IMG/VR virus record: IMGVR_UViG_3300012363_000019
Coordinates: 1 to 26,605 of that record
From: a virus
Length of the DNA stretch: 26,605 nt
Strand: one strand, 5' to 3'
Shown here: positions 3,596 to 26,605 of the stretch, in pieces
How the letters are laid out: each line of letters starts with the position of its first letter
How positions within the stretch are numbered: the stretch's first letter is position 1
Made by a program: the position numbers and the translations under genes
Notes under the pieces: generated by a model
Seen by the model: only the letters and a program-made list of their open reading frames with translations
What the model was told of the DNA's origin: nothing
The model's database searches: none

Positions 3596-6500
3596 TCACC
3601 ACGTCGCCAGCACCGCGCCATCTTCCCCGCCGCTGCCGTTCTGAGTTCCTCCAGTACCGGCTGTCCCGCCAGCGTTAATGGTCACGGTGAACGTACTGGT
3701 AGGGGTGGTCGCGGCGATGTTTTCCACGTAGCCACCGCCGCCGCCACCACAAGCCCCTGTAGTGTTTAGATATGGACTGCTCCCGCCACCGTTGCCGCCG
3801 TTGCCGGCGAATCCACCGCCACAGCTTGGGCTAAATGCGGGCGCGCCACCACAGTTGAACCCTCCTGACATTCCGGGACCGCCAGCAATGGCCACCGTCC
3901 CATGTAACCCGCCACTACCACCACTGTTAGAGCATTGCGCCAAACCCGACGCGATGCTTACTCCGGCGCCGCCGGCCGACGGGCTTAAGTTGTTCCCGCC
4001 AATGCCCGCACCAGTAACGGTAGTTGTACCGCCCGAGCCGCCGTTAACAGGAGTGCTGCCAAAGCCGCCCCCACCACCGCCACTGCCCCATACTTGAAAC
4101 ATCACGGCATAGACATTGGTTGGAACGGTAAAGGTCCCACTCGACGTGAATAGTTGCTGCCCATGCGGCTGTAAGGTGGGGAGCGACTGCCATGTCGCTG
4201 CGGTAGCGCTCGACGCAAAGGGAAGCTGATTCGCGACCGGGATTCCCGTCACCGTCACTCCATCGAAGCCTGGCACTTGCGACGCCGCCAACAAGCTCCA
4301 CGCCGGAGCCTGCGCGACATTCGCGGTGCTCGGCGTGCTCGCCAGGAATTCCTTGATCGCCGTGGTGTTCGCGACCGGCGCTGTGTACGCGCTGCTCGCA
4401 GCCCCTTGATCGTTGTAGAAGCCTGTCGTGTTCGCCAGCGAGACACTATGTGCGGTGTCCACTTTGAGCACGTCGAACGAGACGCATCCCAGTTCGGTCG
4501 GGAACGTGACGACGTTGTAGTTAGTCGAGTTCAGCGTCGCGTTGCCGGTGGTCGTCGCGCCGCTCGATGACGCTAACGTCTTGCCGCCGAACGCATCGTT
4601 GCAGACCAGAAAATAGGTGTAGGTCGTCGCGCCTGTGGTGCCGACATTCGTGATGACCGGCACCGAGGGTGTCGCTAGTTGCGTTGTGTTTCCAGCCAGC
4701 CGCGCATTCGCGGGCGTGCCGTTCTCGTAGAGTAAATCACCCAGCGTCGTCAGCGTGCGCGTATTGCCGATGATATCGCCGATCACCGCCGCCATCGTGC
4801 TCGTCGTCGGTGGTGCGGCTCCCACTCCTGCGCTCCCGTCGTCGTTATACGAGGTCGCAGTACAGTTGCCGCTTGTGCCGGTGCAGGTCGCGAGCAGACC
4901 GAGCGCCCCGCCAATCCGACCGTAGACCCCATAGCCGCCGTAGCAGCCGGTGCCGGCGGTCCACGAAACTAAGTTGTGATTACCAACCGATAGCGCTGCC
5001 GCATTCGTCGCCGTCACCGTCCCCCCTGGCACCGTATGCGTCGAGGCATCGCCGTTGCAGACTAATTCGTAGGTGTAAGTCGTCGCGCACGTCCCCGAGC
5101 AGGTCCCCACTGCGGTCGGCGTCGGCGATGTGTAGGTCCCCATCTGGAGCGTGTTGATATTGATCCCGCTGTAATTGTTGAAATTGGCGGTCGCGCTCAG
5201 CGGAAACGTTCCAAGACTCAATGACGAGATATTGCCCGCGAGCGTGGTCGAGTTGACCGCTGCGAATTGCCAGATATTGTGCGCATTCGCGGTCGTGCTC
5301 GGCAGCGCAGGCTGACTCCCGGCCCCCGGCCACGTCAGCGTCCAGCCACCAGGGACCGAAAAGACCGGGGTTGTCCGTCCCCCGGTGCCATCTTCCGTCG
5401 TATCGATTATGAAATTCGCGCCGCTGGCGAAGTTGGTCAGGCTGATCGCCACGGCATTCCCGCCCAGAATCACCTGCTGCACATTGCCGTTGAGCCCGAT
5501 ATTCACCGTCGCAGCACTGGCCTGCGTCTGCGAAAAGGCCGCTGGTGCGGTAATCGTCGCCGTCCCGATCGTGCCCGCCGGTGGATTCGTCACCGTCGTC
5601 CCCGCGAACAGCGGGCCTGCTACCGCGACCGCGCTCACCACTTCGGGTGGATCGGTCTGCGAGAGCATGATCGCCGTCAAGTCGCAGCTGCTTGAAAAGG
5701 GAATCACCAAGGGAATCGGCGGCCCGTTACCGACACTCAGGTTGACGTGCGCGCCCTGCTGCACTTGGCAGCCGGCCTGAATCGTCCCGGTCGCATCCGT
5801 CGTACAGACCAGCGTCGATCCCGCAATCGGCAGATTCGATCCGCCGCCGGGCAGTTGCAACGCCGTCGTCTTGAAGGTCAGCTTCGAATTGGCAAAGGCT
5901 TGCGCCGTCGCCGGATTCAACGACGCAAGTTGATTCGCAAAGCTGCAATAGCTGTTCGTGATCGCGGCGGGATTACCGCCCGTCAGCGTAATCCCCTGCG
6001 CATCCGTCAGCTGCGTGCCGGTCCATGCCGCGAAGGTGTAGAGCGACCCATTGAAGTAGGACTCGCTCGGGGTCAGCGGCCAGTTCGCCGTATTGATCCC
6101 GCCGAAAAACCACTTGCCGTTAACGAAATTCGCGAGTGTCACGTTGCGGCTCGCCACCAGCGCCCCGTCCACGTAAAGCTTCATACCGGCCGCGCCGATA
6201 CTGACTACCGCCTTATGCTCGTTGCCGTCCGCATAGGCGATTGGCGATTGGAGCACGTCAGTCGCACCGAAGTTGTTGACCCCGAAATTCAGCTTGCCGT
6301 GCGTGTCGAGAAACAACACGTAGTAGGCGTTTGCGGTTTGCACAGAGGTCGCGGCGAGTTGCGCAATGCCGCCGGAGGTCCCCGCGAAATCAACGTAGAG
6401 GGTGGCAGGTTGCGGATTGCTGTACTGCGTCGGGGTCGTGATCGAGCAGCCGGTTCCGCTCGCATTGCTGCAAGCGATCGCGCCGTTCTGATTCAGCGTG

Positions 6501-6697
6501 TAGCCGCCGGAGATCGTCCCGCTATTCGCGTCGATCGTGTCCGTGATCGCGGTGCCACTTGTTTCCTGGAGCGGCCAGCACGACGTTGCCGCGGGACTCG
6601 TTCCCGTCACCGCCGCCGGACAGGTCAGCGCGCCCGCACGCGACGCGCTGAGGCACAGAAGAAACAGAAGCCCTAACGCTGCCCCCCTTCGCTTCAT
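3596..6697 (-). CDS. Large tail-fibre/receptor-binding protein with signal peptide, LamG-like domain and Gly-rich tip (1033 aa)
   Basis: The ATG at 6697 directly follows the stop of the 78-aa gene. Residues 1-23 (MKRRGAALGLLFLLCLSASR, then AGA) form a signal peptide. Residues about 95-240 have the concanavalin/LamG pattern: DGNEHKAVVSI, LYVDGALVASR and FNGSLYTFAAW. Two related beta domains follow, each containing TTYTY-LVCN and a second cysteine about 40 residues later. The link between them carries LTTLGDLLYENGTPANARLA, a module common in phage fibres. The C-terminal part begins with QLFTSSGTFTVPTNVYAVMF and VWGSGGGGGG and continues about 160 residues with Gly-rich runs. This is the fibre-tip type, comparable in composition to the polyglycine tips of some adhesins. 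Probable role: host recognition. The signal peptide is odd for a fibre assembled in the cytoplasm. Confidence 0.85.
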   Translation of the reverse strand: MKRRGAALGLLFLLCLSASRAGALTCPAAVTGTSPAATSCWPLQETSGTAITDTIDANSGTISGGYTLNQNGAIACSNASGTGCSITTPTQYSNPQPATLYVDFAGTSGGIAQLAATSVQTANAYYVLFLDTHGKLNFGVNNFGATDVLQSPIAYADGNEHKAVVSIGAAGMKLYVDGALVASRNVTLANFVNGKWFFGGINTANWPLTPSESYFNGSLYTFAAWTGTQLTDAQGITLTGGNPAAITNSYCSFANQLASLNPATAQAFANSKLTFKTTALQLPGGGSNLPIAGSTLVCTTDATGTIQAGCQVQQGAHVNLSVGNGPPIPLVIPFSSSCDLTAIMLSQTDPPEVVSAVAVAGPLFAGTTVTNPPAGTIGTATITAPAAFSQTQASAATVNIGLNGNVQQVILGGNAVAISLTNFASGANFIIDTTEDGTGGRTTPVFSVPGGWTLTWPGAGSQPALPSTTANAHNIWQFAAVNSTTLAGNISSLSLGTFPLSATANFNNYSGININTLQMGTYTSPTPTAVGTCSGTCATTYTYELVCNGDASTHTVPGGTVTATNAAALSVGNHNLVSWTAGTGCYGGYGVYGRIGGALGLLATCTGTSGNCTATSYNDDGSAGVGAAPPTTSTMAAVIGDIIGNTRTLTTLGDLLYENGTPANARLAGNTTQLATPSVPVITNVGTTGATTYTYFLVCNDAFGGKTLASSSGATTTGNATLNSTNYNVVTFPTELGCVSFDVLKVDTAHSVSLANTTGFYNDQGAASSAYTAPVANTTAIKEFLASTPSTANVAQAPAWSLLAASQVPGFDGVTVTGIPVANQLPFASSATAATWQSLPTLQPHGQQLFTSSGTFTVPTNVYAVMFQVWGSGGGGGGFGSTPVNGGSGGTTTVTGAGIGGNNLSPSAGGAGVSIASGLAQCSNSGGSGGLHGTVAIAGGPGMSGGFNCGGAPAFSPSCGGGFAGNGGNGGGSSPYLNTTGACGGGGGGYVENIAATTPTSTFTVTINAGGTAGTGGTQNGSGGEDGAVLATW

Positions 6698-7581: not shown

Positions 7582-8049
7582 TTATTCTGTGTGTTTCCAT
7601 GTCCTGCCACTCAGTAGGTCCGCCACTGCCCGAACACTCACACCATACGAACGAGATAGCGCCGACTTGGTCGCACAGCCCCCAGCATACCTTTGCCGAA
7701 TCTCGCGAACCTGTACTTCGTTCAACAGATGATTCCCGCAATTCTCACCAGAGAATAAAAGATTACGTCCCTTACGGCGGCGGTCCTCCATGTTGTCCGC
7801 TACCGTGCCAAGGAATAGATGGTCGGGATTCACACAAGAACGCGTATCGCACGTATGCAGTACCTGCTGCTCATCAGTAAGCCCGCCGTGCGTGAATAAC
7901 CACATCAAGCGATGGGCGCGCCATTCACGCATACGATATTTCTGCGCACCGTAGCCGCGATCCGTCAGATGCCTAGTCCACAACCAGCATCCAGTGTTCG
8001 GCTCCGGCGTATACCTATCGTGAAATTGCGCTTCCGTGATCGGTCGCAT
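7582..8049 (-). CDS. HNH endonuclease, probable free-standing homing enzyme (155 aa)
   Basis: The protein shows the phage HNH pattern in order. GCWLW is at residues 20-24, a GYG and an AHRLMW segment lie at 32-50, and the core H65-T-C67-D68, C72-V-N74-P75 and H77-L78 is complete. A GTVADNMEDRRRKGR segment follows. The last 45 residues (LNEVQVREIRQRYAGG and SALSRSYGVSVRAVADLLSG) look like a helix-turn-helix DNA-binding tail, typical of homing endonucleases. The pattern predicts a metal-dependent DNA-nicking or cutting enzyme. It sits between two signal-peptide genes, and neither is visibly interrupted. The start ATG lies 2 bases after the previous stop. Confidence 0.92.
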   Translation of the reverse strand: MRPITEAQFHDRYTPEPNTGCWLWTRHLTDRGYGAQKYRMREWRAHRLMWLFTHGGLTDEQQVLHTCDTRSCVNPDHLFLGTVADNMEDRRRKGRNLLFSGENCGNHLLNEVQVREIRQRYAGGCATKSALSRSYGVSVRAVADLLSGRTWKHTE

Positions 8050-24451: not shown

Positions 24452-24513
24452 GCCAGCCAGATTTCAAGTGAGGTCAGTTCTTCCTCGCCCAGAATGATAA
24501 TCCAGTTCGCCAT
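24448..24513 (-). CDS. 21-residue micro-ORF between portal and ATP-grasp genes
   Basis: The ATG at 24513 overlaps the portal stop as TGATG, and its stop overlaps the ATP-grasp GTG as GTGA. It reads MANWIIILGEEELTSLEIWL and a final Ala. Overlap on both sides indicates translational coupling. It may be only a coupling device, or a peptide substrate for the adjacent ligase. It has acidic residues (EEE) and Thr/Ser, but no known graspetide core motif. Confidence 0.45.
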   Translation of the reverse strand: MANWIIILGEEELTSLEIWLA

Positions 24514-26387
24514 CAGCCATTACCGAGCCCCTGCGCGGCCTTGATCCCCTCGAACATCTTGCCCAGCGCCTCGAGACTCACCTTCGCATCGCCGTGCCGA
24601 TTCTCGCGGTCTTCCTTGTGCGCCGCTAGCAGCCGGTCGAAAATCGCGGCAAGGTCGTCGCGTTCCGACGCACTGCGGCTGTTCGCCGAGTTGGTGATAA
24701 CCGCCTTGGCCTTGGCGAAATGCTCCACCGACCGCGCCGTCTTGAGCAGATTGTCGCTCTCCACGTCCTGCTTGCCGCGCGGCTTGCCGCGCCCGCCCGC
24801 CGCCAATCCCTCCTGCGCCATTTCGGCTTTCTGCTTCTCGCTCGAGGCCATCCCCTCCTTGAGTTTCTGGCGGATCTGCACCGGCAGATTGACGTAATCC
24901 AGCAGCTCGGGAAAGAAATTGCCGGTGCGCACCAGCATCGGCGCAATCTGCAGGATCGAATCGGTATAGAACTGGCGGAGATTCGGGTCCTGATCGTTCT
25001 CGTCGAGCACAATATCGTAGTCGATCGCGAACGGGTCCTTGGTCATGCGGATCGCCTGACCATCGAACGCACCGCCGATACGAATCACGCGGTTGTCGGC
25101 GATCAACTTCATGAAGTCGAAAATCAGCGCCCCCTCGCGTTTGCGAAAGCGCGAGAGCGAATCGAACTCGGCCGCCAGCAGCACCATCCCCTGCGTGAGA
25201 CGGCGGCGTAACGAGACCCCCGGCGTGTTGCTCTGGTCGGTGCCCAGCAACGAGGTCGAGAGGCCTATGATCTTCTCCATCATATCGATACAGAACGACA
25301 GCACCGCCAACGAGCCCTGCGGCATTTGCGGGATCGCCTTGGGCAAGATGCGATTACCCTGAATCGCGCCGGCCTGCACGATATTCACGCTGCCCGCGCG
25401 CGCGCCGGTCTCCTCGATATCGCGCTTCTGGGCGAGCGTAATCGCGCCGGTCTCCGCCAAATAGCCGCCCTTCGTCGACGCCCCCATGATCTCCAGCACC
25501 TGCCGGAACATCGCGTTCGCGTAACGCTGCGGCGCCATCAACGCCCGCAGCAGCCCGTAGAACACCTTGTCCTTGCGGTCCCACGTGCCGGTCATCACGT
25601 TCCACGTAAAGCCACCCGACTGCGTGACCAGCTTGGTCTCGTCGCCCAGCAAGATGCGGCGCTGGAGCATAAACATCCGCTTGTAAACGCGCTTGTCCTG
25701 CTGATCGAAGTCGGTGATCGCCTGATGGTAAAGCGCCTTCAGCCGCGACCGATACTTGCGGAAGTCGGCCTCGTTCAGCCACGTATCGTTCTGTTCGAGT
25801 GGGTCGAAAAAGTAGTAGCCGTCCTCCGTATCGTAGAACTGGAATTCGGTGATTGGCACCTTGCCCGGCTTCCCCGATGAACCGCCGCCATTCTTGTTGA
25901 GCGGTTCCGTCATAATCCACGGCACCACATAATTGATCGGGCGCCCCGCGCCGCGGCCGAAGTCGGGGATCTGATCCTCGTTAGCCGCTCCTCCCGCTGC
26001 CGCGCGGATAAACATGCCCTCGTCGGGCCATTTGCGAATCGCCTCGTCCACATCCATGAAGGATTCACGGGCGAGCCAGCGCGGCCCCCCGCCAGGCTGA
26101 TCGAGACCGAAATTCATCGCGTCAGTCTCCGGCCACCACATCTGCTCCGGGGGTGTCCGACGATAACGCGGGTCGCCTTGCGGATTCGAGGCGCGGGTGA
26201 TGCCGATATCCACCCAGCCCAGACCGCCTACCAACTTGTCCTCGAACGCGGCCGAGCGCTCATAGGTGCCGGCCGAGCGGTCCACGAACCACTCAGCGAA
26301 TTTGGTGCAGTTGTGTGCTATAATGCCGTTGGCGGTATAGAAACCCTCGCTGGTCTCCAGATTGAAAACAGGAATAGTTTGATGCAC
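24513..26387 (-). CDS. Portal protein, C-terminal part, preceded by an intein C-terminal segment
   Basis: After the intein segment the C-extein runs from Cys (26307-26309) to 24513, 598 residues. It begins CTKFAEWFVDRSAGTYERSA followed by FEDKLVGGLGWVDIG. This matches P22-type portals, where a helix precedes a conserved 'G-G-GW' strand. Later parts include TGTWDRKDKVFYGLLRALMA, the long helix PQRYANAMFRQVLEIMGAST, and a C-terminal helical tail rich in Lys/Glu. The portal is the dodecameric DNA gate of the head. About 100 N-terminal residues expected for the family are missing here and must lie beyond the window. The frame stays open to the window edge. The GTG at 26387 with GAGG 8 bases upstream is a possible separate start if the gene is fractured. 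Confidence 0.85.
   Translation of the reverse strand: MHQTIPVFNLETSEGFYTANGIIAHNCTKFAEWFVDRSAGTYERSAAFEDKLVGGLGWVDIGITRASNPQGDPRYRRTPPEQMWWPETDAMNFGLDQPGGGPRWLARESFMDVDEAIRKWPDEGMFIRAAAGGAANEDQIPDFGRGAGRPINYVVPWIMTEPLNKNGGGSSGKPGKVPITEFQFYDTEDGYYFFDPLEQNDTWLNEADFRKYRSRLKALYHQAITDFDQQDKRVYKRMFMLQRRILLGDETKLVTQSGGFTWNVMTGTWDRKDKVFYGLLRALMAPQRYANAMFRQVLEIMGASTKGGYLAETGAITLAQKRDIEETGARAGSVNIVQAGAIQGNRILPKAIPQMPQGSLAVLSFCIDMMEKIIGLSTSLLGTDQSNTPGVSLRRRLTQGMVLLAAEFDSLSRFRKREGALIFDFMKLIADNRVIRIGGAFDGQAIRMTKDPFAIDYDIVLDENDQDPNLRQFYTDSILQIAPMLVRTGNFFPELLDYVNLPVQIRQKLKEGMASSEKQKAEMAQEGLAAGGRGKPRGKQDVESDNLLKTARSVEHFAKAKAVITNSANSRSASERDDLAAIFDRLLAAHKEDRENRHGDAKVSLEALGKMFEGIKAAQGLGNG
26310..26387 (-). other. 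Intein C-terminal splicing segment (IntC) in the portal gene
   Basis: The residues VPVF-type VHQTIPVFNLETSEGFYTAN followed by GIIAHN, then Cys, fit the intein C-terminal blocks: a beta strand with VFNLET, an aromatic/Ala-Asn turn, and the terminal His-Asn before a Cys +1 nucleophile. Splicing would cut after the Asn and join the Cys to an N-extein. The N-terminal intein blocks are not in the window. Whether it is contiguous or split cannot be decided; a separate start would make an IntC of about 26 residues, short compared with usual 35-40. Confidence 0.88.
26316..26324 (+). promoter_or_regulatory. Extended -10 promoter for plus-strand ORF
   Basis: TGCTATAAT on the plus strand has the TGn extension and a perfect TATAAT (26319-26324). 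No clear -35 box is seen. Transcription would begin near 26331, about 50 bases before the ATG at 26382. It lies antisense to the codons of the intein's terminal motif, so partial coincidence with coding cannot be excluded. Confidence 0.45.
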
Positions 26388-26605
26388 ACATGTCGCCTCG
26401 GTCACACGCACTGCGGGAAGCACGGCTCCGCGATCACGACGGACTATCTGGCCGGACTCTATTTCCGCGACCAGCTCTCGACGCCGAAGATCGGCGCGCT
26501 GGTCGGACTGGATAGTTCCGCCGTACAGTATCGTCTCAAGCAGGTGGGCTACACCATGCGCGGCGGCGGCTGCGCGCGGGATCAAGAGCGGCGACGCCGC
26601 AGTAA
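26382..26605 (+). CDS. Helix-turn-helix protein, homing-endonuclease-like, partial
   Basis: AGGA lies 8 bases before the ATG at 26382 (MHTCRLGHTHCGKHGSAITT). The frame is open to the window edge, 74 codons. Residues 18-60 read ITTDYLAGLYFRDQLSTPKI, then GALVGLDSSAVQYRLKQVGY and TMR. This is a clear helix-turn-helix of the type found with intein- or intron-associated endonucleases. Cys/His residues at the N-terminus (C4, H8, H10, C11, H14) may bind metal. The minus-strand reading of the same bases is Arg/Ala-rich and has no recognisable domain. It probably encodes part of a homing enzyme or a regulator placed in inverse orientation beside the intein segment. The catalytic part, if any, lies outside. 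Confidence 0.6.
   Translation, partial: MHTCRLGHTHCGKHGSAITTDYLAGLYFRDQLSTPKIGALVGLDSSAVQYRLKQVGYTMRGGGCARDQERRRRS

Follow-up and report, generated by a model that had tools for sequence, protein, structure and literature searches.

Intein C-terminus in a P22-type portal gene

The window analyzed here is the whole of IMG/VR record IMGVR_UViG_3300012363_000019, a linear fragment of 26,605 bases, and because the record ends at the window's right edge, sequence further right lies beyond the data. The following features lie at that edge:

24513..26309, minus strand: portal protein C-extein, P22-type (Pfam P22_portal, E 6e-40; phrog_156; alignment with 84 uninterrupted relatives)
26309-26307, minus strand: Cys, the +1 residue of the portal C-extein
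26310..26408, minus strand: intein C-terminal region (IntC) RVTEATCVHQTIPVFNLETSEGFYTANGIIAHN, blocks F and G (HMM of related inteins, E 4e-12)
26409..26603, minus strand: open frame in register with IntC, probable antisense-coded intein linker
26316..26324, plus strand: predicted extended -10 promoter TGCTATAAT for the antisense ORF, inside the IntC codons I-I-A
26370..26373, plus strand: Shine-Dalgarno core AGGA, 8 nt before the antisense ATG at 26382
26382..26605, plus strand: N-terminus of the antisense ORF, 74 codons, helix-turn-helix (HTH), probable homing endonuclease (codon bias, weak HTH matches, family-like position, promoter and start)

Minus frame 24513..26603 reads from RVTEATCVHQTIPVFNLETSEGFYTANGIIAHN directly into CTKFAEWF, with the IntC-to-portal junction HN/C at 26310/26309 and blocks F and G intact, bearing out the initial annotation's placement of this junction immediately before a P22-type portal C-extein. 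An HMM built from related phage inteins gave one match among the 668 window ORFs (six-frame), at residues 66-99 of this frame (E=4e-12), and assigned the window IntC to the NLETxxGxYxANG class. TIGR01443 (intein_Cterm) scored the same region below threshold (13.8 bits vs 15.6), and PF14890 gave no match to it. The P22_portal match to the frame (E=6e-40) begins at profile position 85 of 594, meaning that the portal N-terminal domain is absent from the window.

We aligned 84 portal relatives with the window, comprising 4 named phages and 80 IMG/VR portals. All 84 are uninterrupted at the insertion point wherever the locus reaches that far, and HN/C occurs there in the window only; the closest relative (L005, 62% identity) has a normal portal N-domain with no break at this point. 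Portal scans and DNA patterns for HNCT-portal junctions found no intein-bearing portal relative, single-sequence scans returned no close relative of either the portal or the plus-strand ORF, and Rfam gave no match to a group I or II intron or other known RNA. Since the intein HMM match is unique in the window and the portal is uninterrupted in 84 relatives, we consider an intein C-terminus in the window's portal gene a solid call on sequence grounds, as the initial annotation had proposed.

That the contig stops inside the element, and is a single sequence without reads, would fit a decayed or chimeric end, in which the insert is what remains of a dead intein or results from an assembly join and the portal is unspliced. 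Such an end is highly improbable given the intact C-extein (approximately 598 codons without an internal stop, normal codon bias), the intact blocks F/G and HN/C junction, and a conserved promoter in its expected place (described below).

Two further observations concern other genes. PF14890 finds inteins upstream of the portal in the records of two relatives of this phage, L015 and L054 (G009, 26123-27973; G024, 6460-6687), where the large terminase gene is expected, with two inteins in one 1116-aa frame. Within the window, a separate minus-strand ORF at 7582-8049 resembles, by sequence only, an HNH endonuclease with an HTH.

Coding on the strand opposite the intein

The plus-strand ORF starts at ATG 26382 and runs off the contig end. 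When codon usage was scored with the window's own genes as the training set, the plus strand received +0.10 per codon over 26382-26603 vs -0.19 for the minus strand (difference 0.29). A preference for the antisense strand was seen in none of 512 equal windows inside known genes, and by this score the coding strand changes from minus to plus at approximately 26382. The inverted HTH ORF noted in the initial annotation is therefore a genuine coding sequence by this measure.

Minus frame 26409..26603 has no stop up to the contig edge; it is open over the 74 visible codons, as are 58% of equal windows in the window's ordinary genes. The minus-strand peptide in this region had been described as Arg/Ala-rich and unlike intein or endonuclease sequence. 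A peptide of this kind has the appearance of a double-coded linker, and the inteins of relatives run contiguous through the corresponding overlap.

A family of inteins with a probable antisense endonuclease

We identified at least 111 non-redundant phage or prophage inteins, each contiguous, with a Vsr/I-Bth0305I-like endonuclease in codon register on the opposite strand, including inteins in cultured Jersey-type Salmonella phages. Their host genes are mostly MuF head genes, a naming that rests on annotated relatives and extein sequence, and none is a portal. A DNA-pattern search of IMG/VR for NLETxxGxYxANG returned 59 inteins, again mostly in MuF-type head genes, and in 42 of the 59 the opposite strand has a complete ORF, 224-355 codons long and in codon register with the intein, across which the sense frame is free of stops. 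The antisense proteins align along their length, contain N-terminal HTH segments and show weak REase_MTES_1575 matches. When one of them was used as a tblastn query, 122 phage records were matched, most often Jersey-type Salmonella phages, with matches typically inside genes annotated as head morphogenesis or structural and antisense to them in the examples examined. Because the records examined either annotate just one head gene, on one of the strands, or list the antisense ORF as hypothetical, these enzymes have been overlooked.

The geometry of the overlap is regular: the antisense gene spans a median of 92% of the intein, and of 104 loci, 95 have its start 20-22 residues before the intein end and 68 have its stop opposite residue 2. 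Bacterial genome contigs, presumably representing prophages, also carry such inteins (L239, L244, L247, L248 and others; Rubellimicrobium, Micromonospora, Lamprocystis, Ornatilinea). Three members of the nuclease family look different and are possibly free-standing or decayed: L197 and L245, with 5 and 2 stops, respectively, and L253, in which the frame is open and IntC is missing.

Expression signals within IntC codons

Across 87 family loci, we redrew the IntC codons at random from the codon usage of each locus with the protein kept (300 redraws) and compared the expected counts of antisense expression signals with those observed. All four signals were in excess in the real sequences: the Shine-Dalgarno core (63 of 87 vs 29.7 expected), ATG (52 of 87 vs 28.4), exact TATAAT (29 vs 3.5) and TGnTAnAAT (25 vs 0.6). 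For each of them, the real count was reached by none of the 300 redraws. Their positions are also conserved, with TATAAT at offset 12 from the +1 codon in 24 of 31 cases and TGnTAnAAT at offset 9 in 25 of 26. Synonymous codon choice in IntC, as judged by these comparisons, sets up predicted signals for antisense expression, namely an extended -10 promoter, a ribosome site and a start codon; the promoter with its Shine-Dalgarno sequence is a feature of many family members, though not of all.

The window follows the same pattern. Its putative promoter, TGCTATAAT, is the single match of its kind in the window (0.18 expected), uses ATA, which accounts for 8 of the 271 Ile codons in the window, and lies at offsets of exactly 9 (extended -10) and 12 (TATAAT) from the +1 codon, as in the family. 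The window's antisense ORF is in codon register with the intein. Its ATG faces H74, which precedes N98 by 24 residues (18-29 in the family); the usual family start lies 4 codons closer to the intein end. Because the HTH of the window ORF is only generically similar to the family, we take the predicted promoter at the family offset to be the strongest link between the two.

HMM homology of the plus-strand ORF to the endonuclease family was considered and dropped as evidence: against 37 family sequences, phmmer gave E 0.004, and an unrelated HTH from the window scores equally, a non-specific result reflecting generic HTH likeness. Only the HTH part of the ORF is visible, and its best Pfam match, a weak one, is to HTH_AsnC, as might be seen if the ORF encoded a small HTH regulator rather than an endonuclease. 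This seems improbable to us, as a family endonuclease occupies the same place in more than 100 related inteins, many of them with the same promoter, and the ORF also shows a weak PHROG match to an HNH endonuclease N-terminus (E 0.25). Together, the plus-strand coding signal and the family arrangement support the earlier suggestion that an inverted gene of endonuclease type takes the place of the remaining intein.

Both strands of the overlap are under constraint

To assess double coding, we assembled 141 nuclease loci from nuclease-family scans of viral and genome contigs, IntC-pattern loci and 3 annotated phage loci. The nuclease is antisense in an open intein frame in 135 of these, lies in a one-stop intein in 3, and is placed otherwise in the remaining 3. 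Among 101 non-redundant loci, taken regardless of frame openness, 351 sense-frame stops would be expected opposite the nuclease from each locus's own codon usage and 8 were observed, with no stop at all in 98 loci; in the subset found through the nuclease, 214 were expected and 8 observed.

Substitutions in the overlap between related pairs fall at enzyme codon positions 1:2:3 in proportions of 0.33:0.19:0.47, and enzyme third positions change more slowly than those of the free extein at comparable divergence (L131/L159, 0.30 vs 0.56 per codon). This substitution pattern and the third-position rates suggest that the enzyme frame is the more constrained of the two, and that the sense frame appears to add a second constraint. 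Sense-frame conservation such as FHGDG was left uncounted for the sense frame, as it is largely a shadow of the enzyme's AVE core.

An AF2 model of the nuclease from a family member (pLDDT 84) has a catalytic domain that matches I-Bth0305I and Vsr (probability 1.00, TM approximately 0.6 by target length, E 0.003-0.007). The modeled sense intein has Hint-like ends, with Foldseek matches that are almost all to inteins and related Hint proteins, and in this low-confidence model the linker is unstructured (pLDDT approximately 25).

These contiguous relatives bear directly on whether the window's intein is split. In a fractured gene, the portal would be made by protein trans-splicing of two products, one from an N-portal-IntN gene and the other from an IntC-portal gene that begins at GTG 26387, with a separate, inverted endonuclease gene between the two. 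The inverted coding ORF does lie directly upstream of IntC, the GTG (26387-26385) with a GAGG (26399-26396) 8 nt upstream exists as the initial annotation described it, and fractured phage genes that combine split inteins with Vsr-like endonucleases were reportedly described by Dassa (2009; cited in PMC10448857 and PMC7090010). We nonetheless consider a fractured portal gene unlikely. An IntC beginning at this GTG would be approximately 26 aa long, shorter than the HMM-matched region; the window's minus frame reaches the contig edge without a stop; and relatives that have the same IntC class and antisense promoter, together with an inverted nuclease, are contiguous. With the sense frame unbroken in 98 of 101 double-coded relatives of the same arrangement, and nothing in the window to contradict it, the split intein inferred in the initial annotation finds no support.

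A proposed cis-splicing intein with an enzyme on its other strand

Phage and prophage inteins of this widespread family are, we think, very likely coded twice, once as a splicing element and once, antisense and in codon register, as a Vsr-like endonuclease whose expression signals lie in the IntC codons, with the window showing the same arrangement at a new site, the portal gene, its enzyme possibly different or diverged. For the window itself, the likely reading of the sequence is that the portal intein splices in cis and has its homing endonuclease encoded antisense, and its IntN, N-extein and nuclease domain would lie beyond the contig.

Under this model, one contiguous cis-splicing intein would sit just before the conserved T-x-x-x-E-W helix of the portal, and splicing would join the portal N-half, beyond the contig, to CTKFAEWF. 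The homing endonuclease would be encoded in codon register on the opposite strand of the intein and expressed through an extended -10 promoter and a ribosome site of its own, both placed in the synonymous codons of IntC. Read in the sense direction, the overlap would give a loose linker at the point where endonucleases usually insert into the intein fold; read antisense, it would give a folded enzyme. That enzyme may cut intein-free portal genes, with the whole element then being copied in.

Relation to known systems

Canonical bifunctional inteins share with the arrangement described here the Hint fold, blocks F/G and an endonuclease at the canonical insertion point; they differ in that their endonuclease is in-frame in the precursor, whereas here it has a start and a stop of its own on the opposite strand. 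The fractured genes attributed to Dassa and colleagues (2009) reportedly combine phage genes, split inteins and Vsr-like (EDxHD) endonuclease genes. The likeness is a phage gene with such an endonuclease in the intein region, but there the intein is in two genes around the endonuclease gene, while the window's relatives are contiguous and their endonuclease overlaps antisense. The catalytic domains of the relatives' enzymes have the fold of I-Bth0305I and Vsr (PDB 3r3p, 1vsr, 1cw0), to which they add N-terminal HTH repeats and antisense coding within inteins.

Three published systems are similar in other respects. The ShiLan domain, an insertion in a phage methylase that hides a same-strand HNH endonuclease, is likewise a phage insertion that leaves the host frame stop-free with an endonuclease hidden in another frame; no intein splicing domains were found in it, whereas the inteins described here are recognizable as such and carry antisense enzymes, of EDxHD type in the relatives (PMC11855218). 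The group I intron Didymium L2066 has a homing endonuclease gene antisense to its splicing element, but as this is an RNA intron in rDNA, the overlap yields no second protein (PMC9548176). Inteins in the portal gene of a phage are known from cluster C1 mycobacteriophages, and antisense coding is not reported there in the passages covered (PMC5050341). The literature covered gave no account of antisense endonucleases in inteins; the likeliest source, the preprint 10.1101/2025.01.02.630785 ('Non-Canonical Architecture'), lies outside that coverage, and the novelty of these inteins is accordingly uncertain.

The antisense overlap is seen repeatedly in many phages, and signs of selection are visible on each strand as well as in the expression signals. 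In bacteria and their phages, it is generally considered very unlikely that two conserved protein genes overlap antisense in codon register over a long stretch. As a present-day example, antisense-endonuclease inteins also bear on ideas that early genes were coded on two strands. Their presence in easily cultured Salmonella phages makes the sharing of DNA between intein and endonuclease directly testable, along with the spread of a selfish element while its host gene stays essential.

Finally, inteins in helicase-like genes from IMG/VR (L103, L121, L136, L160) carry a different overlapping ORF of approximately 220-250 codons, located on the same strand in another frame and encoding zinc-finger-like and Vsr-like motifs (IAIEVDG..H...D.RK...L...GW.V). 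This seems to be another, independent way in which inteins carry an endonuclease coded in overlap.
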